A DNA stretch of 62,855 bases from Methanosarcina sp. MSH10X1 (GTDB lineage Archaea; Halobacteriota; Methanosarcinia; Methanosarcinales; Methanosarcinaceae): positions 1-62,855 of the forward strand of contig NZ_SCHL01000020.1 of the NCBI RefSeq assembly GCF_004099695.1. Reading direction: 5' to 3'. Positions 692 to 32,193 of the stretch are shown here, one piece after another (position 1 is the stretch's first letter; every line of letters begins with the position of its first letter). The position numbers were made by a program, and so were the translations under genes. The notes beneath the pieces were generated by a model, which saw nothing but the letters and a program-made list of their open reading frames with translations, did not search any database and had not been told where the DNA came from.

Positions 692-1561
692 TTATTCCTT
701 ATTATTCTGAATTATCCCATCCTTTACGAGTACTATCCTGTCAGCGTACCCTGCAATTTCCGGATCATGGGTAATCATTACAATGGTTCTGCCATCTTCA
801 TTGAGTTTTCTAAACATATTTAGAATCTCACAGCCTGTTTTCGAGTCCAGATTTCCGGTCGGCTCATCTGCAAGAAGGATTGCGGGATCGTTGACGAGAG
901 CTCTGGCGATAGCGACTCTCTGGGATTGTCCGCCTGAAAGCTCACCCGGCCTGTGACGCATTCTATCCCCCAGTCCCACGAGTCTAAGTAACTCCTTTGC
1001 TCTTTCGTGAGTATCGACCCCACTCCTGGAGTTAGCATAGGTAGGAAGTTCGACATTTTCAAGAGCTGTAAGCCTGGGGATCAGGTTAAATGTCTGGAAA
1101 ATAAAACCGATCTCTAATCCTCTGAGCCTGGCAACTTCCCTGTCAGATAATTTATTGATGTCAAGTCCTTTAATTATGATTTTTCCTTCTGTAGGTCTAT
1201 CAAGAAAACCTATAAGATTCATAAGTGTGCTTTTCCCTGAACCAGAAGGTCCCATAATGGCAAGGAATTCTCCCTCCCGGACTTTCAGGTTAATATCATG
1301 GAGAATCGGAACCTCCATATCTCCAAGTATATAACTCTTTTTAACATCAATCACTTCAATAACAGAAGCTGCTGTCAATTGTGTTTTACCGTTCTGCAGA
1401 TCTCCAGAACGGCGCAGCTCACATTTAAACTGCTCTTCACTTGAAGTAGCCAGATCTTTTTCCGAGGGCAGTTTTCCTTCAAGCCTGGAATTTTCGGTTC
1501 CCGTCTCCAATATTAAGTCTCCGGGAGCAGAAACGTCTTCAATGGATATCTTCGTTTCCAT
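692..1561 (-). CDS. ABC transporter ATP-binding protein, LolD/MacB type, with N-terminal extension
   Basis: A 289-residue ATPase with Walker A GPSGSGKST, the Q-loop segment FIFQTFNLIPRLTALENV, signature LSGGQSQRV, Walker B ILLADEPTGNLD and a switch His in MITHDPE. This is the LolD/MacB/FtsE subfamily, which powers FtsX-type permeases. The first 65 or so residues are a polar extension that its paralogue at 4573-5295 lacks, and I see no better internal ATG. By eye the two ATPases share about 70 percent identity. The neighbouring order (ATPase then COG1361 protein) repeats that of the second cassette; its partner permease is either the one at 2062-3276 or one beyond the left edge. Confidence 0.93.
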   Translation of the reverse strand: METKISIEDVSAPGDLILETGTENSRLEGKLPSEKDLATSSEEQFKCELRRSGDLQNGKTQLTAASVIEVIDVKKSYILGDMEVPILHDINLKVREGEFLAIMGPSGSGKSTLMNLIGFLDRPTEGKIIIKGLDINKLSDREVARLRGLEIGFIFQTFNLIPRLTALENVELPTYANSRSGVDTHERAKELLRLVGLGDRMRHRPGELSGGQSQRVAIARALVNDPAILLADEPTGNLDSKTGCEILNMFRKLNEDGRTIVMITHDPEIAGYADRIVLVKDGIIQNNKE

Positions 1562-2061: not shown

Positions 2062-3276
2062 TTATTCATATCTCAGAGCGTCCACAGGATTCATGCGTGC
2101 AGCTTTTCTTGCAGGATATAGGCCAGCAGTTACTCCCACCAGGATAGAAATCGCAATTCCGATTTCGATCAACTTTAAGGGAAAGACAGGAGGAAGTTTA
2201 AGAGCACTCTCAAGAGCGTAAGCCCCCAGACCGCCTATTGCAGTGCCTACAATTCCCCCAAAGAAGCTGACCATTATGGATTCAAGCAAGAAAAGGGATA
2301 GAATATTGGAATTGCTGTAACCTACAGATTTCATTATCCCGATTTCCCTGGTTCTTTCAGTTACGGTCACAAGCATAATATTCATAATTCCTATTGAGCC
2401 CACAAAAAGAGAGATAAGGGCAAGAGCCAGCAGGAAAGAATTCAAAGCATCTCCTATTTTTCCTGTTTGCTCAAGAACTTCTTCCTGGTTAAAGACGTAA
2501 TAAGGTTTTACATCCTCATTATCAATGTCTCTTTCCGGAACTCCGAAATTCCGGGCAAATCTGCTATCTACGTCATCTGAAATATCACGAACTTTTTCAG
2601 GACTGTCCGCCATTGCAAGGAAAGCTCCATAGTCCTTTTCCCCGATCATTTCGTTCATAGTAGAAATGGGAATGAAAACTGTCAAATCGTAGTCACTGTC
2701 TTGACTTACAACCGTTGGCTCGGAATCTTTCAGTATGCCTTTTACCTTAAAACTTTTTGTCACAATTGTACCATTTTCCTGTCGGAAAGCGATCTCTACA
2801 GTACTCCTGTGGGAGATATTCTTACTGAACTTGTCGTTTGCAATATCATACCCAAGAACAGCAGATGCGCTATCTTTATCCGTCAGGAAAGTACCCCCTT
2901 CCATTTGCAGGCCCTGAATTTTCTGAAAATCCTTGTTAACTCCTGCAATATTCACATTTTTAGTCTCTGAGAGATATATGAGATCCCCGCTCATCGTTTT
3001 TCTGGGAGATACGCCTGTAATTCCCGGAGTATTCTTCATAAGATTGTACTCGTTTTCAAAGAAAATGTTTGGCTGCTCGCTGGCTGCAATAATAAAATTG
3101 GAGCCTACTGAAGAGATCTCATCAGTAAAAAACTGATTAAAGCTGGCACCAAGGGATGCATTTACAACAACGGCAGCTATGCCAATTACTATTCCCAGTG
3201 TGGTGAGTGCAGACCTTAGCTTAGCACTTCCTATACTCCCGGATGCTATACGGGCTGCCTGTCCAAATTTTATCAT
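2062..3276 (-). CDS. MacB/FtsX-family ABC transporter permease
   Basis: A 404-residue permease with the MacB layout: one membrane helix near residues 20-40 (TTLGIVIGIAAVVV), a large extracytoplasmic MacB_PCD-like domain to about residue 275, then three C-terminal helices of the FtsX domain. These contain typical segments such as GSIGIMNIMLV, TERTREIGIMKSVG and GLYPARKAARMNPVDALRYE. It follows the COG1361 gene by about 40 bp, in the order ATPase, surface protein, permease, so the three are probably co-transcribed. The family includes exporters of peptides and lipoproteins and mechanotransmission systems; the substrate here cannot be read from sequence. Confidence 0.93.
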   Translation of the reverse strand: MIKFGQAARIASGSIGSAKLRSALTTLGIVIGIAAVVVNASLGASFNQFFTDEISSVGSNFIIAASEQPNIFFENEYNLMKNTPGITGVSPRKTMSGDLIYLSETKNVNIAGVNKDFQKIQGLQMEGGTFLTDKDSASAVLGYDIANDKFSKNISHRSTVEIAFRQENGTIVTKSFKVKGILKDSEPTVVSQDSDYDLTVFIPISTMNEMIGEKDYGAFLAMADSPEKVRDISDDVDSRFARNFGVPERDIDNEDVKPYYVFNQEEVLEQTGKIGDALNSFLLALALISLFVGSIGIMNIMLVTVTERTREIGIMKSVGYSNSNILSLFLLESIMVSFFGGIVGTAIGGLGAYALESALKLPPVFPLKLIEIGIAISILVGVTAGLYPARKAARMNPVDALRYE

Positions 3277-3318: not shown

Positions 3319-4560
3319 TTATTGTTTTCTTTTCTTGTAGAACAAGAAAGCAGCAGGAACAGAGACTATAAGAAGTCCGCCTGCCAGTACGGCTGTTGGA
3401 TTAGATTCCGTAGATCCCGAAGCACTGGTGAAGTTCAGGTTGCCTACAGTATTTGCATGTCTGTTAATTCCATTATTATAGTTTGCAGTAAGGCTCATAT
3501 TTTTACCCTCCTCCCTGCCAGGACTCCACGAATCGTCTGCTACCGCATTGAATTCAATAGTAAAGAGTTCATCCGGATTCATTGGCCCTATGAAGTATTC
3601 TGCAGGGTAGAATCTCATACCTTCGGCTTCTGGTTTTATGCTTACCGAATTGAATTCGTTAGGGTGGGTATTTGCCACATCGAACTCAATTGTAGCTTTT
3701 CCATCGACCATTGTAAGTTCTTTTGAGGGGATCACTCTTATGTTCGAGGAATCGACCTTGAGAGGAATATTCTTTCTGCTGTTGTAATCAAAGGAGTTGC
3801 CCTCGATTGCAAGTTCAAGGTTATGAGTTCCTTCTGTAGCCTCCTCTGCAACCCTAACATTGAAGGTCAGCCTGATGCTGTCTCCAGGCCCCAGAAGACC
3901 CATATCCTCGTAGGGAGCGTCAAGCACAACTATTCCGTCAGATAAAGGTCTTAAGACCGCAGCCTGGATTCGGGCATTGGTATCAAAGTCACTCCCATCA
4001 ATGGTGACAGTTGGAGTAGTTGCTGTGTTCGTAAGAGTTACAGTAATGGTCCCCCTGTCCCCGGGCATGAAAACTCTGGGCTCCGAAATAACTTCCTTAA
4101 GCTCAACCGTGCCTTTACTGTTAAATGTTTCAGTGCCTATTCGTATGTCAAAGCTTTTCTCACTCCAGGGACTGTCTTTATCCGTCTTTGTCCGGATATC
4201 AATAGAGCGCACTCCTTTCTGTGCGTTTTTATCTACAAAAAGATGAAACTCTTTTGTAGCAGTCCTGCCAGGATTGAGAACTCCGACGTTCTTCAGAGCA
4301 TTTGCCTGGGAATCAAGAGAGAAAGGATATTGAGGTACGATTTCGATGTCAACATTCTCAGCTTTGTCTCCTCCGATGTTTTCCAACTGAACGGTTAGAG
4401 TCAGATATTCTCCTATTTTTGCAGGATAGGGATTTGTTTCGACTATTGTAACTTTCAGGTTGGCTCCCCCAACAGCTGCAGAGGCAGGAGCTGCAAAAAT
4501 TGAGGAGATTAAGAGCAACGAAAAAAAAGCTGCGATAGTGTTCTTTTTAATTATTTGCAT
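3319..4560 (-). CDS. COG1361 S-layer-like surface protein, C-terminally anchored
   Basis: 413 residues. A signal peptide (about residues 1-28, ending PASA) is followed by NEW1/CARDB-like beta-sandwich modules containing phrases such as LENIGGDKAENVDIEI and PGDRGTITVTLTNT. A C-terminal hydrophobic anchor (AVLAGGLLIVSVPAAFLF) ends in the basic tail YKKRKQ. This is the usual architecture of COG1361 proteins on methanogen cell surfaces. It sits between an ATPase and a MacB permease, which suggests an extracytoplasmic accessory subunit. Its N-terminal two thirds is almost identical to the partial gene at 1-644, while the adjoining ATPases have diverged much more. Confidence 0.9.
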   Translation of the reverse strand: MQIIKKNTIAAFFSLLLISSIFAAPASAAVGGANLKVTIVETNPYPAKIGEYLTLTVQLENIGGDKAENVDIEIVPQYPFSLDSQANALKNVGVLNPGRTATKEFHLFVDKNAQKGVRSIDIRTKTDKDSPWSEKSFDIRIGTETFNSKGTVELKEVISEPRVFMPGDRGTITVTLTNTATTPTVTIDGSDFDTNARIQAAVLRPLSDGIVVLDAPYEDMGLLGPGDSIRLTFNVRVAEEATEGTHNLELAIEGNSFDYNSRKNIPLKVDSSNIRVIPSKELTMVDGKATIEFDVANTHPNEFNSVSIKPEAEGMRFYPAEYFIGPMNPDELFTIEFNAVADDSWSPGREEGKNMSLTANYNNGINRHANTVGNLNFTSASGSTESNPTAVLAGGLLIVSVPAAFLFYKKRKQ

Positions 4561-4572
4561 GTATTTCCACCT

Positions 4573-5295
4573 TCAATTGTATTGAATTATTCCATCCTTT
4601 ACAAGGATAACTCTATCAGCGTATTTTGCAATTTCAGGGTCGTGTGTAACGATTACTACTGTTCTACCTTCCGTATTCAAATCCATAAATATTCGAAGGA
4701 TTTCGGCTCCTGTTCTGGAGTCAAGGTTTCCGGTCGGCTCATCTGCCAGAAGGATTGCAGGGTCGTTAATAAGTGCACGTGCAATTGAGACCCGCTGGGA
4801 TTGCCCTCCTGAAAGTTCCCCTGGTTTGTGATGCATGCGGTCATGCAGTCCCATAATTTTAAGAAGTTCCTTTGCACGTCTCTTTGGATCGATATTGGTT
4901 CTCGAATTAGCAAAGGTAGGAAGCAAGATATTTTCAAGTGCAGTCAGGCGCGGAACAAGATTGAAAGTTTGAAAAATAAAACCTATTTCGAGCCCCCGAA
5001 GATGGGCGAGCTCTTGATCTGACATCCTATTTAGATCCTTTCCCCTTACAAGAACCTGTCCTTGAGTAGGCCTGTCAAGGCAGCCTATAAGGTTCACAAG
5101 AGTACTTTTTCCAGAGCCTGATGGGCCCATGATAGCCAGAAATTCTCCTTGTTCAATTTTAAGATTTACATCTGAGAGAACGGGAATCTCCATACTCCCA
5201 AGTATATAGGTTTTCCTGACATTGGAGACTTCGACAATAGGAAGTCTGTCCTCAGGCAAATTATTTTTGTTAATATACACGTCCCCCTGTCCCAA
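4573..5295 (-). CDS. ABC transporter ATP-binding protein, LolD/MacB type
   Basis: 240 residues with Walker A at about 57-65 (GPSGSGKST), Q loop FIFQTFNLVPRLTALEN, signature LSGGQSQRV, Walker B ILLADEPTGNLD and IVTHDPEIA. The length is standard for this subfamily. It is the first gene of the right-hand cassette; its stop lies 12 bp before the COG1361 gene, which supports one operon of ATPase, surface protein and permease (5295 down to 2062). Inferred to energise the MacB-like permease. Confidence 0.95.
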   Translation of the reverse strand: MGQGDVYINKNNLPEDRLPIVEVSNVRKTYILGSMEIPVLSDVNLKIEQGEFLAIMGPSGSGKSTLVNLIGCLDRPTQGQVLVRGKDLNRMSDQELAHLRGLEIGFIFQTFNLVPRLTALENILLPTFANSRTNIDPKRRAKELLKIMGLHDRMHHKPGELSGGQSQRVSIARALINDPAILLADEPTGNLDSRTGAEILRIFMDLNTEGRTVVIVTHDPEIAKYADRVILVKDGIIQYN

Positions 5296-6092
5296 AGTTA
5301 CTAAAATGTGATAGAAGAATTACATTGAATAATCTCAATGTTTTTACTCATTATGTAAGACAGTCCATTTTAACTTATGCTTTATTAATTTTCGCCCAAA
5401 GACCCAGTTTGAAGGCATATAGATATTGTTTTGTAAATTAAAAATCATGGATATTAATTGGTTATCAGAAGATGTTTCTCGAATTACCCTCTGGACTTTT
5501 TTAAATAACTTATCATTATAAATAATGAATCTTTACCAAAAAATACGAAAACTAGAGTCAGCTAAAATATAGGCTGTGAAAACAGATAGCTGTAATTCTT
5601 TCATGAGGTGAAAGACCTTTTACAGAAAATTTACGAACATTCTCCAGAAGTAACCTTCATAAATTAATAATGTATCTATATGCACATATATTAGAAAACC
5701 ACTGACGGGTTCAAAACGACTAAACCAATCATTTTTAAAAATTTTTTCATTTAATCTTGAGACACAGTAAAATATTTAGATCAAGGTGGAGAATAAATTA
5801 GGGACTTTTAAACATTAAATAGGTTAAAAAATATATATCTGTATAAGGGAACCTTACTCTAAACATTTAGAAACTATTTTTCATAAGGAGATGAAATTCT
5901 ACCGAGCTTATATAATTTGGTATATATAGCTATATACAGTCACTGTTGGTTAAAGTTTTGAACGGTAGATCTCGAATTAATAGAAAATGCATCATAGAAT
6001 ATTAATAAGTGCTGACAGGGGCTGTGAAAAAGGTACCATTTAGCAGTACGCAAACATTGATATAAAAATGTAAAACAAAGGGGGGAATAGAT
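5296..6092. other. AT-rich intergenic region with hairpin and leader of the mini-ORF array
   Basis: No ORF of ordinary size on either strand. A stem-loop at 5590-5625 pairs CTGTAA with TTACAG and has an inner CTTTCA/TGAAAG stem; it could be a small RNA or a terminator. Near 6010-6053 GTGCTG can pair with CAGTAC. TATA-like runs lie at about 5908-5935. The right end carries the G-rich ribosome-binding site of the first mini-ORF. Confidence 0.5.
5908..5935 (+). promoter_or_regulatory. candidate TATA promoter of the mini-ORF array
   Basis: Two overlapping TATA-like stretches (TTATATAAT and GTATATATAGC) lie about 160-185 bp before the first mini-ORF. If used, transcription would start near 5940-5960 and give a leader of about 130-150 nt. 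Inferred from position and composition only. Confidence 0.35.
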
Positions 6093-6182
6093 ATGGTCTT
6101 TGCATTTAACTTTAGTCAGATGTTCGCATTCATGACTAACTTCAACTTCGTATTCGATTTAGGCAATTTCTGCTTTTTCTAA
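6093..6182 (+). CDS. 29-residue aromatic-rich mini-protein, head of tandem array
   Basis: ATG at 6093 follows a GGGGGG ribosome-binding site by about nine bases. The peptide begins MVFAFNFSQMFAF and ends NFCFF; eleven of its 29 residues are Phe. It shares the M(I/V)FxFxxS start and a Cys-Phe end with the 25-residue peptides encoded downstream, so I read it as a diverged founder of the same family. A perfect TTCTGCAG/CTGCAGAA stem (6202-6242) follows. No family is recognised and function is unknown. Confidence 0.6.
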   Translation: MVFAFNFSQMFAFMTNFNFVFDLGNFCFF

Positions 6183-6295
6183 GCGGAAGTGCAAGATGTG
6201 TTTCTGCAGGGAGAACCATAAGGTCTTATCCAGACTGCAGAAGACCAGGGTATAACGGGGGATAAACAAAACCAGGAAAAAGTGAGGGATTTAAA

Positions 6296-6373
6296 ATGAT
6301 CTTCAGTTTCGAATATTCAAATATTATAAAGTACTTCCAGGCGGAGTGCTTCAAATTCTTCTACTGCTTCTAA
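6296..6373 (+). CDS. 25-residue aromatic-rich mini-protein, array unit 1
   Basis: ATG at 6296 follows GTGAGGG by seven bases. The peptide starts MIFSFEYSNIIKYF and ends AECFKFFYCF: ten aromatic residues and two Cys in 25 positions. It has no long aliphatic helix typical of a classic membrane toxin, but is strongly amphipathic. The ORF is followed by a CAAGCTGTAAGAAAAAG segment and the stem-loop of the next unit. No known family; translation is inferred from the ribosome-binding site and from conservation of the frame among copies. Confidence 0.65.
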   Translation: MIFSFEYSNIIKYFQAECFKFFYCF

Positions 6374-6488
6374 GCAAGCTGTAAGAAAAAGACCTCTGCA
6401 CCGGTATGAACAATATTATTGTAACCTCGGTACAGAAGGCCGTGGTATAACGGGGACGAACAATCAGGAAAAGAGTGAGGGATTTAAA

Positions 6489-6566
6489 ATGATTTTCAGT
6501 TTCGAATATTCAAAGATTACACAGTACTTCCAGGCGGAATGCTTCAAATTCTTCTACTGCTTCTAA
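6489..6566 (+). CDS. 25-residue aromatic-rich mini-protein, array unit 2
   Basis: Same architecture as unit 1. The peptide begins MIFSFEYSKITQYF and ends AECFKFFYCF. Compared with unit 1 there are two silent changes (ATC/ATT and GAG/GAA) and three replacements (N9K, I11T, K12Q). All aromatic positions and both Cys are retained. Confidence 0.65.
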   Translation: MIFSFEYSKITQYFQAECFKFFYCF

Positions 6567-6681
6567 GCAAGCTGTAAGAAAAAGGCCTCTGCACCGGTAT
6601 GAACAATATTATTGTAACCTCGGTGCAGAAGGCCGTGGTATAACGGGGACGAACAATCAGGAAAAGAGTGAGGGATTTAAA

Positions 6682-6759
6682 ATGATTTTCAGTTTCGAAT
6701 ATTCAAAGATTACACAGTACTTCCAGACAGAATGCTTCAAATTCTTCTACTGCTTCTAA
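6682..6759 (+). CDS. 25-residue aromatic-rich mini-protein, array unit 3
   Basis: Identical to unit 2 except that the Ala before Glu-Cys is Thr (QTECFKFFYCF). The upstream leader from the TATAACGGGG element to the ATG is base-identical to that of unit 2, so this is the most recent duplication in the array. Ribosome-binding site GTGAGGG. Confidence 0.65.
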   Translation: MIFSFEYSKITQYFQTECFKFFYCF

Positions 6760-6870
6760 GCAAGCTGTAGATAGAAGGGTTCTGCAAGGTGAGCGAGGTC
6801 CTTATAAACGCAATTGCAGAAACCTGCGTATAACGGGGACGAACAATCAGGAAAAGGGTGAGGGATTAAA

Positions 6871-6948
6871 ATGATTTTCAGTTTCGAATATTCAAATATT
6901 GTAAAGTACTTCCAGGCGGAGTGCTTCAAATTCTTCTACTGCTTATAA
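6871..6948 (+). CDS. 25-residue aromatic-rich mini-protein, array unit 4
   Basis: ATG at 6871 with GTGAGGG upstream. The peptide begins MIFSFEYSNIVKYF and ends FKFFYCL, with the last codon TTA instead of TTC. It is closest to unit 1 (one conservative change, I11V, plus the end). The stem-loop after it (6967-7012) has diverged in sequence but still folds with a GGGAAG/CTTCCC core. Confidence 0.65.
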   Translation: MIFSFEYSNIVKYFQAECFKFFYCL

Positions 6949-7066
6949 ATACGCATAGTTAAAATGTTCCTGCAGGGAAGGACTGCAAAGCTTATACTTC
7001 CCAATTGTAGAAGACTAGAGTATAACGGAGGATAAACAAAACGCAGAATTGAGTGGAGGGATTAAA

Positions 7067-7144
7067 ATGATCTTCGAAATTTTCTACTCGCAGGTCAACA
7101 GTTACTTCCAAGCTGAAACGTTGAAATTCTATTATAAGCTTTGA
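7067..7144 (+). CDS. 25-residue mini-protein, divergent last array unit
   Basis: The most diverged copy. Its ribosome-binding site is a fuller GGAGGG. The peptide begins MIFEIFYSQVNSYF and ends QAETLKFYYKL. Despite many substitutions it keeps the exact length, the MIF start, the YFQAE core and the KF(F/Y)Y tail, but loses both Cys. A frame kept through this much drift argues that the peptide itself is under selection. It is followed 26 bp later by a strong terminator hairpin. Confidence 0.6.
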   Translation: MIFEIFYSQVNSYFQAETLKFYYKL

Positions 7145-7170
7145 TTAAGCAACGGTACTAACGAAAAGAT

Positions 7171-7206
7171 ACGAAGTTGCCAGCCCTTCAGGCAACTTCG
7201 TCCTTA
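7171..7206 (+). terminator. strong stem-loop terminator of the mini-ORF array
   Basis: ACGAAGTTGCC (7171-7181) pairs perfectly with GGCAACTTCGT (7191-7201) around a nine-base loop. Such an 11-bp perfect stem after the last ORF marks the end of the array transcript, or a stable RNA 3' end. There is only a short pyrimidine stretch afterwards. Confidence 0.7.
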
Positions 7207-7805
7207 TAAAAGAAATATAATACTGCCACTTTTTTACCTCCTTTTTATTTTGCTGATATTTACTCTTTTTAATGTCTCTATGAGATCTCTACCATGTCGG
7301 ACATACTTTTGGAAATATAAGAAAAACAAACCTCGTAAAATTTAAAATTGATACTGAAAACTTTAGAATCGGGAAAATATAATATTTTTTAAAGGTTATA
7401 GTTTTCTACGAGGATATTCACTCCAGAGTAATCAAAATAGAATGTAGAGAATCGAGAGGTCTGTCCATCCAAATATAAGATTGCAGCAAAAGCTTCTGTT
7501 AGCTTATGTTAGATTCTGTTTCCAAATACTAAAAGACTATTATTTGTAAGGAGTTGTTATTCTCCACATTATATGTAAATTAAGAGTATACCTTAATATT
7601 GATGATCCTGTGTGAGTCTAGTTCTGAATCTTGTTTCTTTAATAAACTGAGATTTTGTAAATTAGACTAACTTGGATTTCAATAACCTAAGTATATGATT
7701 TAAGGTGCTTTAAGATCCTTTGGTCTTTTAGCCAGGAGTCTCCAAGATTGTTTATACTTACCTTCAATCCCAAAAATAGGTTCTGGGAGTATAACTTGGG
7801 AGTAT
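7207..7805. other. intergenic, about 600 bp
   Basis: AT-rich spacer between the mini-ORF array and the 37-codon mini-gene. No ORF, repeat or convincing hairpin recognised. Confidence 0.5.
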
Positions 7806-7938: not shown

Positions 7939-8052
7939 ATGTTTTACTATATAAGTTATACAAAAGTCACCATACTCATACAAGTAATAAGGTTTAAGAT
8001 GATATATTTTGGCGGCCAGGGTTTTGGCGGCTTTGGAAGATTCCTCAGATGA
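7939..8052 (+). CDS. 37-residue aromatic, glycine-rich mini-protein
   Basis: ATG at 7939 follows a clear GGAGGG by seven bases. The peptide starts MFYYISYTKVTILIQVI and ends with a Gly-rich stretch, GGQGFGGFGRFLR. It sits between its own TATA-like box (about 7806) and a stem-loop with a T run (8103-8154), so it looks like a complete monocistronic unit. Like the array peptides it is rich in Phe and Tyr, but I cannot align it with them. No known family. Confidence 0.5.
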   Translation: MFYYISYTKVTILIQVIRFKMIYFGGQGFGGFGRFLR

Positions 8053-9283: not shown

Positions 9284-10117
9284 TTATATGTCCACCTTAT
9301 TAAACCTCCACATAGCAGCAGATAGCATTGTAAGGGCAAAGAAAATGAGGCCCATGAAAGAAAAAGCGATATCAGCTGTAGTATAAACGTAGTGATTCCC
9401 CATTACAGAGAAATTAGTTCCTAGAGCAAAATAACGGATTCCATCTGCCAGTAGGGTTAGCGGGTTAAACATCGAGAGAAGCTTGAGGATATCAGGAAAC
9501 GACTCGATAGGATAAAGGGCGTTACTTATGAAGAAAAGGGGCATGCTAAGCAGGGTGAGGATTGATTGCATCCCTTCAGGATTTTCAATGGTAATTGCAA
9601 TAGACCCTGACAGGAAAAGGAATCCAAGAGTAAAGACTGCCACCAGTAGCATAATACCCAGGATTGCAGTAATAGTTTGGGCGAGAGTAAATCCCTCAAA
9701 GAAATCCATTCCTATAAGTTTCCCGAATCCTATTATTATGAAAGTCTGGATAAAGGCCTTAGTTACACCCGAAAGTCCAATCCCGAGAATAATATGAAAT
9801 CTGGGAACCGGACTTGCAAGAGTTTCCCTCAAGAGACTAAATTTTTTATCAAACATAAGGGTGGTGCCTCCAAACAGACTGCTGAATAACACATCCATTG
9901 CAATTATCCCTGCCCCCATATACGAAAGATAATCAACTACGGGAACACCGGCTTCGTTTGGAACAAGTGAAGTTAATTTGTCAAAACTGTCAGACATAGC
10001 AAGCCCGAAAAATGCTAGCCACATCACAGGCTGGATCAGTGAACTGAAAAGCACCGATTTAAATCTAAAGAATTTCAGCATCTCTCTCCAGTATATGGCA
10101 CGAAATTCAAAATTCAT
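9284..10117 (-). CDS. ABC-2 type transporter permease (DrrB/NodJ-like)
   Basis: 277 residues with about six hydrophobic helices and the ABC-2 membrane fold. A first helix near residues 22-42 (SSLIQPVMWLAFFGLAM) is followed by loops and helices typical of DrrB/NodJ, including the SMPLFFISNALYPIESFP segment conserved in the family. Its start codon overlaps the stop of the ATPase gene by four bases (ATGA), so the two are translationally coupled. Likely exports a hydrophobic compound, drug, lipid or glycan; the substrate is not evident. Confidence 0.93.
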   Translation of the reverse strand: MNFEFRAIYWREMLKFFRFKSVLFSSLIQPVMWLAFFGLAMSDSFDKLTSLVPNEAGVPVVDYLSYMGAGIIAMDVLFSSLFGGTTLMFDKKFSLLRETLASPVPRFHIILGIGLSGVTKAFIQTFIIIGFGKLIGMDFFEGFTLAQTITAILGIMLLVAVFTLGFLFLSGSIAITIENPEGMQSILTLLSMPLFFISNALYPIESFPDILKLLSMFNPLTLLADGIRYFALGTNFSVMGNHYVYTTADIAFSFMGLIFFALTMLSAAMWRFNKVDI

Positions 10118-11103
10118 TCCGAAACCCCCGCAGTTTCCTTTCCTTGCGGCTTTTCTTTATCATCGCCTTCCCTTAACTCATGCCCTGTGTAATGGACAAA
10201 AACATCATCCATTGAGGGTTTTTTGATATTTACGGTTGTGATATCTATCCCTTCTCCCCGGATTTTCTCCATAATTTGAGGAAGCACATGAGTAACGTCC
10301 TCTCCTATAAGGATTCTCAGGGATTTCGTATCTTCTGTTACACTTTTAACCGACCTTAGTGACCTCAAAATTTCTGCAGCGGTTTTATTATTACTGGTTT
10401 CGAGATAAATGAGGTCTTTACCAAGTGTATTCTTTAATTCATCTGAGTTTCCAGTTACGATTATTTTTCCGTGATCAATTATGCTTATTCTATCGCTCAG
10501 TTGATCCGCTTCTTCCATATAATGGGTTGTCAGAAATATGGTAGTGCCTTCTCTTTTAATCTCTCTAAGGTACTCCCACATTCTCATCCTTGTCTGGATA
10601 TCGAAACCTACGGTTGGCTCATCAAGGAAAAGGACTGCAGGTCTTGTCATCAGACCTCGTGCAAGCTCAAGCCTTCGCTTCATACCGCCGCTCAAATCTT
10701 TTGCCAGGGTATTCCTTTTACTCTCCAGATCAGTCAGTTTTAAGAGTTCGTCGATGCGTTCTTTTCTTTCTTTTTTTGGCATGGAATAAATCCTGCCGTG
10801 ATACTCAAGATTCTCAGATACGGTCATCTCATGATCAAGGCAAAGCATTTGAAAAACAATGCCTATTGATCGTCTTACGGATTTCGAGTCTTTTGCAACA
10901 TCATACCCGTTGACTCTGGCTTCTCCTTTCTGGAGTTTCTTCAATGTAGTAAGAATATTAATTACAGTACTCTTGCCCGCCCCATTTGGACCAAGAAATG
11001 AGAAAATTTCCCCCTGCTTTACAGTGAAACTGATATTGTCAACAGCTTTTAAAGAGCCATATGAATGTTCAAGATTATTTACTTCTATGACATTTCCGGT
11101 CAT
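10114..11103 (-). CDS. ABC transporter ATP-binding protein, DrrA/daunorubicin-resistance type
   Basis: 329 residues: Walker A GPNGAGKS near 39-46, signature LSGGMKRRLE, Walker B VLFLDEPTVGFD and switch TTHYMEEAD. It carries the DrrA-type C-terminal domain (DUF4162-like), including MDDVFVHYTG near residue 300. GFD instead of GLD in the D loop is common in this subfamily. The last 30 residues are highly charged. A TATA-like TAATATAAG lies about 50 bp upstream of the start. Forms an exporter with the overlapping permease. Confidence 0.95.
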   Translation of the reverse strand: MTGNVIEVNNLEHSYGSLKAVDNISFTVKQGEIFSFLGPNGAGKSTVINILTTLKKLQKGEARVNGYDVAKDSKSVRRSIGIVFQMLCLDHEMTVSENLEYHGRIYSMPKKERKERIDELLKLTDLESKRNTLAKDLSGGMKRRLELARGLMTRPAVLFLDEPTVGFDIQTRMRMWEYLREIKREGTTIFLTTHYMEEADQLSDRISIIDHGKIIVTGNSDELKNTLGKDLIYLETSNNKTAAEILRSLRSVKSVTEDTKSLRILIGEDVTHVLPQIMEKIRGEGIDITTVNIKKPSMDDVFVHYTGHELREGDDKEKPQGKETAGVSE

Positions 11104-24326: not shown

Positions 24327-24960
24327 TAAACCTCTGTAAACATTGATAGGTATAAAGAAAGGTATAGAGCAAAGGTTGTCTAAACAAAGAGCCTGGATCC
24401 GGAAAATGAATATTCATTCGAAAACTTATTTTTATATAATAGTAAATATAATATATCTAAAAGCGCAGAGATTTTACAGTTTTTATAAATAAGAGCCTCT
24501 GCGTGAAGGTATAAAAAGAATTCACTAAGGATTTATCAGCAAAAACAGTTCACTAAGGATTTATCAGCAAAAACGGTTCACTAAGGATTATCAGCAAAAA
24601 CAATTTATTGATAGATTACTGGTAAAATCAAGTTCATTAATTGATATTAGTAAAAACTGACACTGGCAACTCATAATTGTCGGGCTTGACATAAATTCGT
24701 TGTTCCTGATATTGATTCGAATGGATTTAGTCTATATTAAATATTATGAGAGTAATAATCAGCATAAGAAACTCTGTAAGAGAGAGCTGATCAATGGAGA
24801 ATTTGACAGAGGGCTTACAAAAAAAATATCAGAGAAAAGCCTGCCTCGCATGAAGCTCAGGAAATGGCTTCCAGATTCAGAGATTTCTCTTATCCAATTA
24901 TCTTTGCTTACTTTTCTTTTCTAAAAAGGACGAATTAAATAAATCAGACAGTGAACCTGT
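24327..24960. other. AT-rich intergenic region, 634 bp
   Basis: Holds a 28-bp tandem repeat (separate entry). A 74-codon frame at 24700-24924 has no ribosome-binding site or recognisable domain and is probably not a gene. Confidence 0.5.
24521..24603. repeat. 28-bp direct repeat, three copies
   Basis: The unit TTCACTAAGGATTTATCAGC plus AAAAACAG occurs at 24521-24548, 24549-24576 (one change) and 24577-24603 (one base shorter). Head-to-tail without spacers, hence not a CRISPR. It lies about 360 bp upstream of hdrC. Confidence 0.9.
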
Positions 24961-31669: not shown

Positions 31670-32040
31670 TTTTTCACCTGACTCGCTTTCAAAAGACCGC
31701 AATATACGCTCAAAGTGAAATTAAGTTTATGTTGTTTTAAATCAGAGCTCTTTGTATATATCTTAATAGTAAAATTTGTATTGGAGACACCTGGATGGTA
31801 GAGCCCAGAAGATAATCTTCGTAAATAATTAAAATGCGGATAAACCGAACTAAAAAAAGTAATAAAACTAAGCAGAGTAATTAAGTCAGTTTACAGTTTC
31901 TCTGAGGGGAAATAAAAAGAATTTGTTAGACCCTTTATAGTCAACCTGTTGATTATTGACATCCTATAGTAGCAGACTGGTTTTTCATTCCCGGGTCTTT
32001 CGAAATCCTTTAAAATCAATTACAAAAAACTAACTTTTAT
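31670..32040. other. intergenic, about 370 bp
   Basis: AT-rich. Contains the minus-strand promoter of the ICMT-like gene near 31750 and leads into the 17-bp tandem repeat. No gene seen. Confidence 0.45.
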
Positions 32041-32193
32041 AATGAACTTATTTTTATAATAAATTTATTTTTATAATAAATTTATTTTTATAATAAATTT
32101 ATTTTTATAATAAATTTATTTTTATATTAAACTTATTTTTATAATGAACTTATTTTTATATTAAACTTATTTTTATAATGAACTTATTTTTGC
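32041..32193. repeat. 17-bp tandem repeat, nine copies
   Basis: Perfectly phased 17-mers of the form AATAAATTTATTTTTAT, with variants AATGAACTTATTTTTAT and ATTAAACTTATTTTTAT, from 32041 to 32193. The four central units are identical. The last unit overlaps the 3' end and stop codon of the exported protein gene at 32184, so the array begins inside the gene and forms its 3' UTR. Confidence 0.95.

Follow-up and report, generated by a model that had tools for sequence, protein, structure and literature searches.

Tandem genes for leaderless micro-peptides lying beside ATP-binding cassette (ABC) transporter genes are known from bacteria. The staphylococcal phenol-soluble modulins alpha are several leaderless peptides of ~20-25 residues, encoded by tandem open reading frames (ORFs) and needing the Pmt ABC exporter, and multi-peptide leaderless bacteriocins such as aureocin A70 are encoded by tandem short leaderless ORFs with ABC transporter genes adjoining. 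Bacterial tandem type I toxin repeats, such as Ibs/Sib and Ldr/Rdl, combine micro-ORFs with structured leaders, and the bacterial versions of the Lol, MacB and Bce/Ykn-type ABC systems have adaptors other than CARDB proteins. Here we analyse a locus of the archaeon Methanosarcina sp. MSH10X1 (contig NZ_SCHL01000020.1 of assembly GCF_004099695.1; the window is the whole stretch analysed, 62,855 nucleotides), at which a tandem array of 25-codon genes for a peptide that we call B, with a gene for peptide A in front and one for peptide C behind, adjoins a divergent operon encoding an ABC ATPase, a CARDB protein and a MacB_PCD/FtsX permease (set-1), followed by a second similar set (set-2).

The locus resembles the phenol-soluble modulins in its tandem leaderless ORFs of ~20-25 residues and in having ABC genes that may handle the products, but the peptides have no family match and no amphipathic-helix signal, a MacB/CARDB system stands where Pmt would be expected, and the organism is archaeal. 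With aureocin A70 it shares tandem short ORFs without a leader and adjoining ABC genes, whereas family matches are again lacking and cationic character is clear only in C (mean net charge +2.1 over its first 24 residues), B being nearly neutral (+0.4) and A (+0.5 to -1.3) slightly acidic in two of its three length classes. LolD/MacB models recognise both the ATPase and the permease of set-1, which also match solved MacB chains, yet the model scores lie under the curated cut-offs for LolD and MacB, and a CARDB protein occupies the adaptor's place. Tandem repeats, micro-ORFs and structured leaders also recall Ibs/Sib and Ldr/Rdl; here, in contrast, the locus is fixed through the genus and linked to an operon. 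We rate the locus as a member of none of the bacterial families compared.

The window array consists of five direct repeats at 6183-7144, each a spacer followed by an ATG-initiated ORF of exactly 25 codons in the ORF listing, with start-to-start distances of 193, 193, 189 and 196 bp; Tandem Repeats Finder reported a period of 193 with a score of 1050. A preliminary description of this DNA had proposed five units of about 193 bp with such ORFs, preceded by GTGAGGG / GTGGAGGG ribosome-binding sites, and both claims hold. All five peptides are related, although the fifth (MIFEIFYSQVNSYFQAETLKFYYKL), taken there to be like the others, is a clear yet diverged relative (the ORF list also has a longer, in-frame version of it that begins at TTG), and the 29-codon ORF seen in front exists but groups with family A rather than B. 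The feature also extends further than first described, since peptide C and a promoter-like block at ~5907-5945 belong to it; families A and C and the MacB-type operon had been overlooked. The elements of the locus, all on the forward strand, are as follows, with the supporting evidence in brackets.

5907..5945, +, conserved promoter-like block: TTATATAA box, TATATAGCTATATA palindrome, then CAGTCACTG (aligned upstream regions)
6093..6182, +, peptide A, 29 residues, MVFAFNFSQMFAFMTNFNFVFDLGNFCFF (A profile, E 1.5e-8)
6183..6248, +, inverted-repeat spacer of unit 1 (arm pairing)
6249..6269, +, box of unit 1, GGTATAACGGGGGATAAACAA (box pattern and consensus score)
6296..6373, +, peptide B1, 25 residues, MIFSFEYSNIIKYFQAECFKFFYCF (ORF list, B profile)
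6374..6443, +, inverted-repeat spacer of unit 2 (arm pairing)
6444..6464, +, box of unit 2 (consensus score)
6489..6566, +, peptide B2, 25 residues, MIFSFEYSKITQYFQAECFKFFYCF (ORF list, B profile)
6567..6636, +, spacer before unit 3 with the strongest stem-loop, arms within 6584-6634 (-30.7 kcal/mol, z -2.48, 0/200 shuffles as good)
6637..6657, +, box of unit 3 (consensus score)
6682..6759, +, peptide B3, 25 residues, MIFSFEYSKITQYFQTECFKFFYCF (ORF list, B profile)
6760..6826, +, inverted-repeat spacer of unit 4 (arm pairing)
6827..6847, +, box of unit 4 (consensus score)
6871..6948, +, peptide B4, 25 residues, MIFSFEYSNIVKYFQAECFKFFYCL (ORF list, B profile)
6949..7018, +, inverted-repeat spacer of unit 5 (arm pairing)
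7019..7039, +, box of unit 5, AGTATAACGGAGGATAAACAA (box pattern and consensus score)
7067..7144, +, peptide B5, 25 residues, diverged (B profile)
7171..7201, +, 3' stem-loop GAAGTTGCC..GGCAACTTC, terminator or 3'-end element (perfect 11 bp, z -2.80)
7939..8052, +, peptide C, 37 residues, MFYYISYTKVTILIQVIRFKMIYFGGQGFGGFGRFLR, N-terminus B-like (C profile, E 1e-19)

Homologous loci share one layout: A (24-31 residues), tandem B (25 residues, 2 to 7 copies per array), the 3' stem, and C (32-44 residues) ~0.8 kb downstream. Profiles built from the typed A, B and C peptides were searched against whole genomes. B reached E <1e-4 in 21/30 Methanosarcina genomes and in 0/81 genomes of other Methanosarcinaceae, the best value outside the genus being 0.008; C was found at E <1e-12 in 22/30, namely the 21 B-positive genomes and G011; and A, searched for in the genus only, was found at E <1e-4 in 20/30, with a 27-codon A-like ORF spotted by eye in G006. 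With 6200-7210 as a DNA query, 17 of the 59 genomes searched gave a match, every one of them from the set of 30 same-genus genomes, and matches of the 281-base unit 1 query to the window's own genome were confined to the array itself. The fetched loci contain 27 A ORFs, 22 C ORFs and 80 B ORFs, of which 79 belong to arrays and one stands alone in G018; these counts leave out the diverged ORFs of G005, G011, G063 and G066 except the C of G011. Exactly 25 residues are encoded by 71 of the 80 B ORFs, an A-B-B module is present three times in G024, and a ribosome-binding-like site precedes 125/127 A/B/C ORFs under a lenient pattern. The lone unit of G018 (second locus, L123:5422-5499; profile E 1.5e-5) has a box-like leader and lies on a contig other than that of the array.

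Evidence on whether these ORFs are real, selected genes came from comparing genomes. The B frame is open in 79/79 array copies across 21 genomes, while the five other frames are open in 0 to 22 of 79; loss of frame in homologous arrays, which the preliminary description had named beforehand as an outcome that would tell against it, was thus not seen. A simple count over similar pairs gave ratios of nonsynonymous to synonymous divergence (dN/dS) between genomes of 0.35 for B, 0.31 for C and 0.69 for A. In a stricter test on seven genome pairs, each B was compared with its closest copy in the partner genome and the same base changes were placed randomly in 2000 simulations. Replacement changes in B numbered 109.6 against 125.1 simulated (ratio 0.62, 19 pairs, 0/2000 as low), and those in C 29 against 40.8 (ratio 0.40, 6 pairs, 0/2000 as low). 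Changes across the border between FILMVWYC and the remaining residues, scored over nine genome pairs of which some have a common genome, were half of expectation in B (35 vs 70.4, 0/2000) and were also fewer than expected in C (3 vs 10.2, 2/2000). Because both replacement and class changes are fewer than simulated, we conclude from these alignments that B and C evolve under protein-level selection, and periodicity, kept frame and this constraint together rule out chance repeats or a random ORF. B copies cluster mostly by genome or among close relatives (in a tree of 75 columns with many weak forks), as in arrays that expand and homogenise, and this clustering, together with the copy number of 2-7, fits selection for dose. 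B and C start alike, so that a shared homology is possible, though unproven.

Each unit also carries an upstream element of its own, as had been proposed. TATAAC begins 45, 43, 43, 42 and 46 nt ahead of the five ATGs (unit 5 reads TATAACGGAGG), just where a box 42-46 bp before each ATG had been reported, and the full 21-nt box begins two bases earlier, 47, 45, 45, 44 and 48 nt from the ATG. The box pattern, with one mismatch allowed, gave 40 matches in 30 genomes, 39 of them in arrays and one outside (in G018), against 0 for the reversed control. A consensus score of at least 16/21 was reached in 69/80 B units and at least 17 in 63/80, compared with 2.9% and 0.5% of shuffled stretches reaching 16 and 17, respectively; nine of the 11 B units below threshold are first units behind A, in G003, G007, G010, G013, G024, G026 and G029. 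The stem-loop ascribed to every unit held up only in part: inverted repeats are present, but they are uneven, with z values against 200 shuffles of -0.23, 0.35, -2.48, -0.11 and -0.59 for the five window spacers, so that unit 3 alone clearly beats chance. Across 55 spacers, a set that includes a few with a false box, cognate arms paired better than swapped arms (-16.8 vs -14.3 kcal/mol; better in 42/55, 0/2000 permutations). Together, the covarying arms and the box in 69/80 units indicate, at the level of sequence comparison, that the upstream element is real.

The ends of the locus are conserved as well. The perfect 11-bp stem reported behind the array was found at 7171-7181 / 7191-7201, and 21/21 genomes have a stem resembling it in sequence behind the last B, that of G017 being a variant; one exact 3'-stem pattern was matched in 8/30 genomes, with a single site away from array ends, and the window copy does not fit that pattern. 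The promoter-like block could be aligned in 20 of 21 regions upstream of A (G006 is anchored elsewhere), with the palindrome perfect in 10/20 and the TATA box reading TTATATAT in G017; a version of it also precedes the G011 array.

Such conservation outside the reading frames raises the possibility that RNA is the main product, with tandem small RNAs in which the ORF is a second function, as in dual-function RNAs. The box scores, the near confinement of the box pattern to arrays, the covarying arms and the 3' stem in every B-positive genome all speak for it. We nevertheless consider it improbable, as B and C are under protein constraint, 17 short-spaced units keep the box with the stem missing, RNAalifold predicted no consensus pair on 29 spacers, and the box was not seen by eye in the G005, G011 and G063 arrays.

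Alternatively, box and inverted repeat may be DNA or 5'-leader signals, forming a promoter for each unit with a TATA-like element ~25 nt before the box and a start at the box, which would fit any product role. Of 50 long-spaced units, 22 have a TATA-like hexamer whose first base lies 23-32 nt ahead of the box (shuffled mean 2.2, maximum 8; the hexamer list was picked after the sequences had been inspected), and long-spaced units may for this reason have promoters of their own. Such a hexamer is absent from all short-spaced units (0/17) despite their kept box, and covariation of arms whose spacing differs is not what a usual operator would show. As a full account of the element we find this unlikely, while part of the element may be a per-unit promoter. 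TATAACGGGG itself was set aside as the TATA box, an AT-rich element lying ~25 nt upstream of TATAACGGGG in many long-spaced units.

The absence of any fitting family, noted at the outset, persisted in database searches: six peptides had no match in Pfam at E 10 and three had none in NCBIfam or PADLOC at 0.01, such short peptides giving these searches little power; the C profile had no match among PDB chains at E 1 (C only was searched); and Rfam 15 covariance models gave 0 matches on the window at gathering score. Mobile elements were equally unproductive, with no match in a phage search with one B peptide or in a plasmid search with the array DNA. In IMG/VR, DNA patterns picked out 3 stretches for the box and 16 for the ECFKFFY codons, and a profile scan of the small ORFs in those 19 stretches found nothing convincing (best E 0.039). 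These results bear on a type I toxin-like role in the manner of bacterial Ibs/Sib or Ldr, for which the short hydrophobic peptides, tandem repeats and partly structured leaders would be suitable. Such a role is less likely because the genes keep to a single locus in much of the genus and neither phages nor plasmids yielded a copy; three peptide families are, moreover, kept together. We regard it as quite improbable and, on the phage, plasmid and IMG/VR searches above, rejected the variant in which the toxin sits on a mobile element. A ribosomally synthesised and post-translationally modified peptide was likewise rejected: eight neighbours in Pfam comprise ABC, CARDB and TspO proteins and one unmatched ORF, with no modification enzyme among them and no wider search made. 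Among the candidate roles suggested earlier, peptides at or outside the membrane fit best.

The divergent operon bears on such a role. Its genes and the set-2 ATPase gene, all on the reverse strand, are the following.

4573..5295, -, set-1 ABC ATPase of LolD/MacB type, divergent from the array (Pfam, curated models)
3319..4560, -, set-1 CARDB protein with signal-like N-terminal helix, beta-strand groups and C-terminal hydrophobic anchor (Pfam, predicted structure)
2062..3276, -, set-1 MacB_PCD/FtsX permease (Pfam, MacB structure match)
692..1561, -, set-2 ABC ATPase of the paralogous operon, possible power source (Pfam, motif check)

In a tree of 55 CARDB proteins, set-1 forms one clade of 24 rows (support 95/99) nested within the set-2 copies; G022, whose partial set-1 CARDB copy beside the array is too short for the tree, was counted as the 25th set-1 genome. 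The set-1 operon occurs together with an array in 25/25 genomes (21 with A or A-like, B and C, and in addition G005, G011, G063 and G066), and arrays occur in 0/11 of the examined genomes without set-1. Eight of the latter were examined by locus (G002, G023, G025, G030, G064 and G065, and two that are more distant, G111 and G119), an examination that covered the named genomes only, and three have no CARDB match at 1e-10 (G004, G009 and the 73% complete G016); G008, which ends in a partial set-1-like CARDB gene, was left out of scoring. In G011 the A-B-B-B array and the set-1 operon are both present on different contigs, with C ~3.5 kb off on the opposite strand. The predicted CARDB structure has a signal-like helix, beta-strand groups interpreted here as three beta-sandwich domains, and a tail of low confidence (mean predicted local distance difference test, pLDDT, 70.6), and the sequence ends in a hydrophobic stretch with basic residues; on this model it reads as a secreted, membrane-anchored, beta-rich protein.

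The peptides themselves have a mean hydropathy of 0.4 to 1.4 and 16-41% aromatic residues across families, and the tandem ORFs of 20-45 residues are leaderless as judged by eye. We conclude that the array peptides are probably real, selected and acting at or outside the cell membrane. For their function we lean, tentatively and with less than even confidence, towards leaderless, membrane-entering peptides that are extracted or presented at the cell surface by the set-1 permease (MacB1) and CARDB protein (CARDB1). The locus would make three short, leaderless, hydrophobic, aromatic-rich peptide families, with B in tandem for output; the peptides would enter the cytoplasmic membrane without a signal sequence; MacB1 and the surface-anchored CARDB protein would extract or present them, powered by set-1's own ATPase or by that of set-2; and at the surface they would act as a surface, signalling or antagonistic product. 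By analogy, this mode would be akin to that of phenol-soluble modulins or multi-peptide leaderless bacteriocins, in which ABC systems handle peptides made without a leader, though the peptides here would belong to neither group.

The same co-occurrence with set-1 would also be expected if A, B and C were resident membrane micro-proteins that bind and tune the MacB1/CARDB1 complex, small-protein regulators of transporters being known. Their hydropathy and aromatic content suit this, as does the prediction of C as a 26-residue helix, and a small protein encoded inside a permease operon of M. mazei was found mainly in the membrane fraction (PMC11456600). On the other hand, 2-7 copies and three families exceed what a subunit would need, charges lie within the hydrophobic stretches (B: K20, E/T17; C: K9, K/R), and the unlike peptides found at the same place in other genomes, described below, suit a product better than a subunit. 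We think resident regulators somewhat unlikely.

Several observations weigh against extraction or presentation of the peptides by MacB1/CARDB1. Since only in G011 do array and operon lie apart, simple linkage could account for most of their joint presence. G023, which lacks an array, pairs a CARDB gene of set-2 type with an ATPase resembling that of set-1 (83% identity), and CARDB homologues occur in 102/111 family genomes at E 1e-10, meaning that the operon type is general in the family and not peptide-specific. Leaderless bacteriocin and phenol-soluble modulin systems have linked functional ABC export genes; here a MacB-type operon is linked to the array or co-present with it in all 25 genomes, but the set-1 ATPase fails to match one or more of three catalytic motif patterns, GxxxxGK[ST], LSGGQ and DEP Walker B, in 10/25 (G001, G010, G012, G015, G017, G018, G019, G021, G027 and G028), and thus is not a dedicated motor everywhere. 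The peptides give no amphipathic-helix signal when the moment at 100 degrees is compared with shuffles (B p 0.51, A 0.27-0.62, C 0.88), and C, predicted as one helix of moderate confidence at residues 2-27 (mean pLDDT 72, predicted template modelling score 0.39), also suits a plain membrane peptide. Finally, A lacks purifying selection between close species, with 70 replacement changes against 64.5 simulated (ratio 1.36, 7 pairs, 1919/2000 as low or lower) and 17 class changes against 16.3 expected (1322/2000). The A profile is kept over deep distances; residue constraint between close species is not supported.

Among the deviating set-1 ATPases, those of G021, G027 and G028 are also truncated and those of G010 and G019 differ in one motif residue only. 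All three motifs are intact in the set-2 ATPase of 8 of these 10 genomes, the gene being split in two ORFs in G018 and cut by the contig end in G010, and the set-1 permease and CARDB protein are near full length in deviating loci, except that the CARDB match is split in G010 and the permease match in G018. Loci L111, L117, L120, L121, L122, L124, L126, L130 and L131 carry motif-deviating set-1 ATPases, mostly with an open frame of ~200-250 codons, which may reflect decay or a changed role. Neither beta-strand nor helix periodicity is present in the hydrophobic pattern of B. A weak 160-degree signal appears only in C (p 0.016) and in the G005 peptides (p 0.023), values uncorrected for the several angles and families, and the 21-residue peptides of a sister genus come near amphipathic-helix significance (p 0.053).

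At the same site, other lineages carry unlike mini-ORFs. The G005 array comprises three listed 32-residue peptides, a B-like ORF and a C-like ORF, and near 10013 lies one more 32-codon ORF of this kind. For the sister genus, the ORF list gives 21-residue ORFs, four in G063 and three in G066, plus one 19-residue copy in G063; this 21-residue array is present in 2/4 genomes of that genus. Unlike mini-ORFs at the same place imply that the product changes while the partner stays. It is conceivable, though we hold it as doubtful, that the locus is an archaeal peptide island: a fixed, transporter-linked site at which unlike micro-peptide families (21, 25, 29 and 32 residues) are tandem-amplified and swapped between lineages while MacB1/CARDB1 is kept, encoding leaderless surface or signal peptides of methanogens with most units under their own box-containing leader. 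No report of such a class of leaderless, tandem-encoded methanogen surface or signal peptides was found in the available portions of the literature searched.

Several further observations concern these loci and the rest of the window. The sister-genus set-1 CARDB proteins (L144 and L145, of G063 and G066) nest within the Methanosarcina set-1 clade on a long branch, and their placement suggests that operon and array site were transferred between genera; the two other genomes of that genus have neither set-1 nor array. By eye, the spaced Q and N residues of the 32-residue G005 peptides (L138:9862-10382, MFDTLIGIGNFAIQTATGN...) are reminiscent of curlin repeats. A DrrAB-like ABC-2 transporter pair lies downstream of C (window 9284-11103), beside the array in part of the loci only, and a homologous pair is on the opposite strand in G005 (L138). 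Elsewhere, the window contains a 17-bp AT-rich tandem repeat of 9.7 copies at 32027-32191 (AAACTTATTTTTATAAT) and 28-bp tandem repeats of 3.2 and 2.2 copies at 24513-24657.

Ribosome profiling of M. mazei identified 314 unannotated small ORFs, half of them of at most 30 residues and 21% inside earlier small-RNA candidates (PMC11456600), and a review counts 40 trans-encoded small-RNA candidates that could encode peptides of <30 residues (PMC3432209). The peptides described here are alike in short length to those M. mazei ORFs, for which the accessible text describes no tandem or paralogous array, and single ORFs of the locus may be among the published M. mazei tables of small ORFs and small RNAs. 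Within the parts of the literature available to our search we met no description of the array, the peptide families, the island or the link to set-1, nor of the tandem small-RNA arrays of M. mazei mentioned in the preliminary description.

Genes this short are easily overlooked in annotation, and the 21 genomes provide comparative evidence that the 25-codon micro-genes of Methanosarcina are real, repeated and selected. Genetic tools exist for the genus (PMC3177094), and the locus offers a handle on the roles of leaderless micro-peptides in archaea, on how they cross or insert into membranes, and on the substrates of MacB/CARDB operons.

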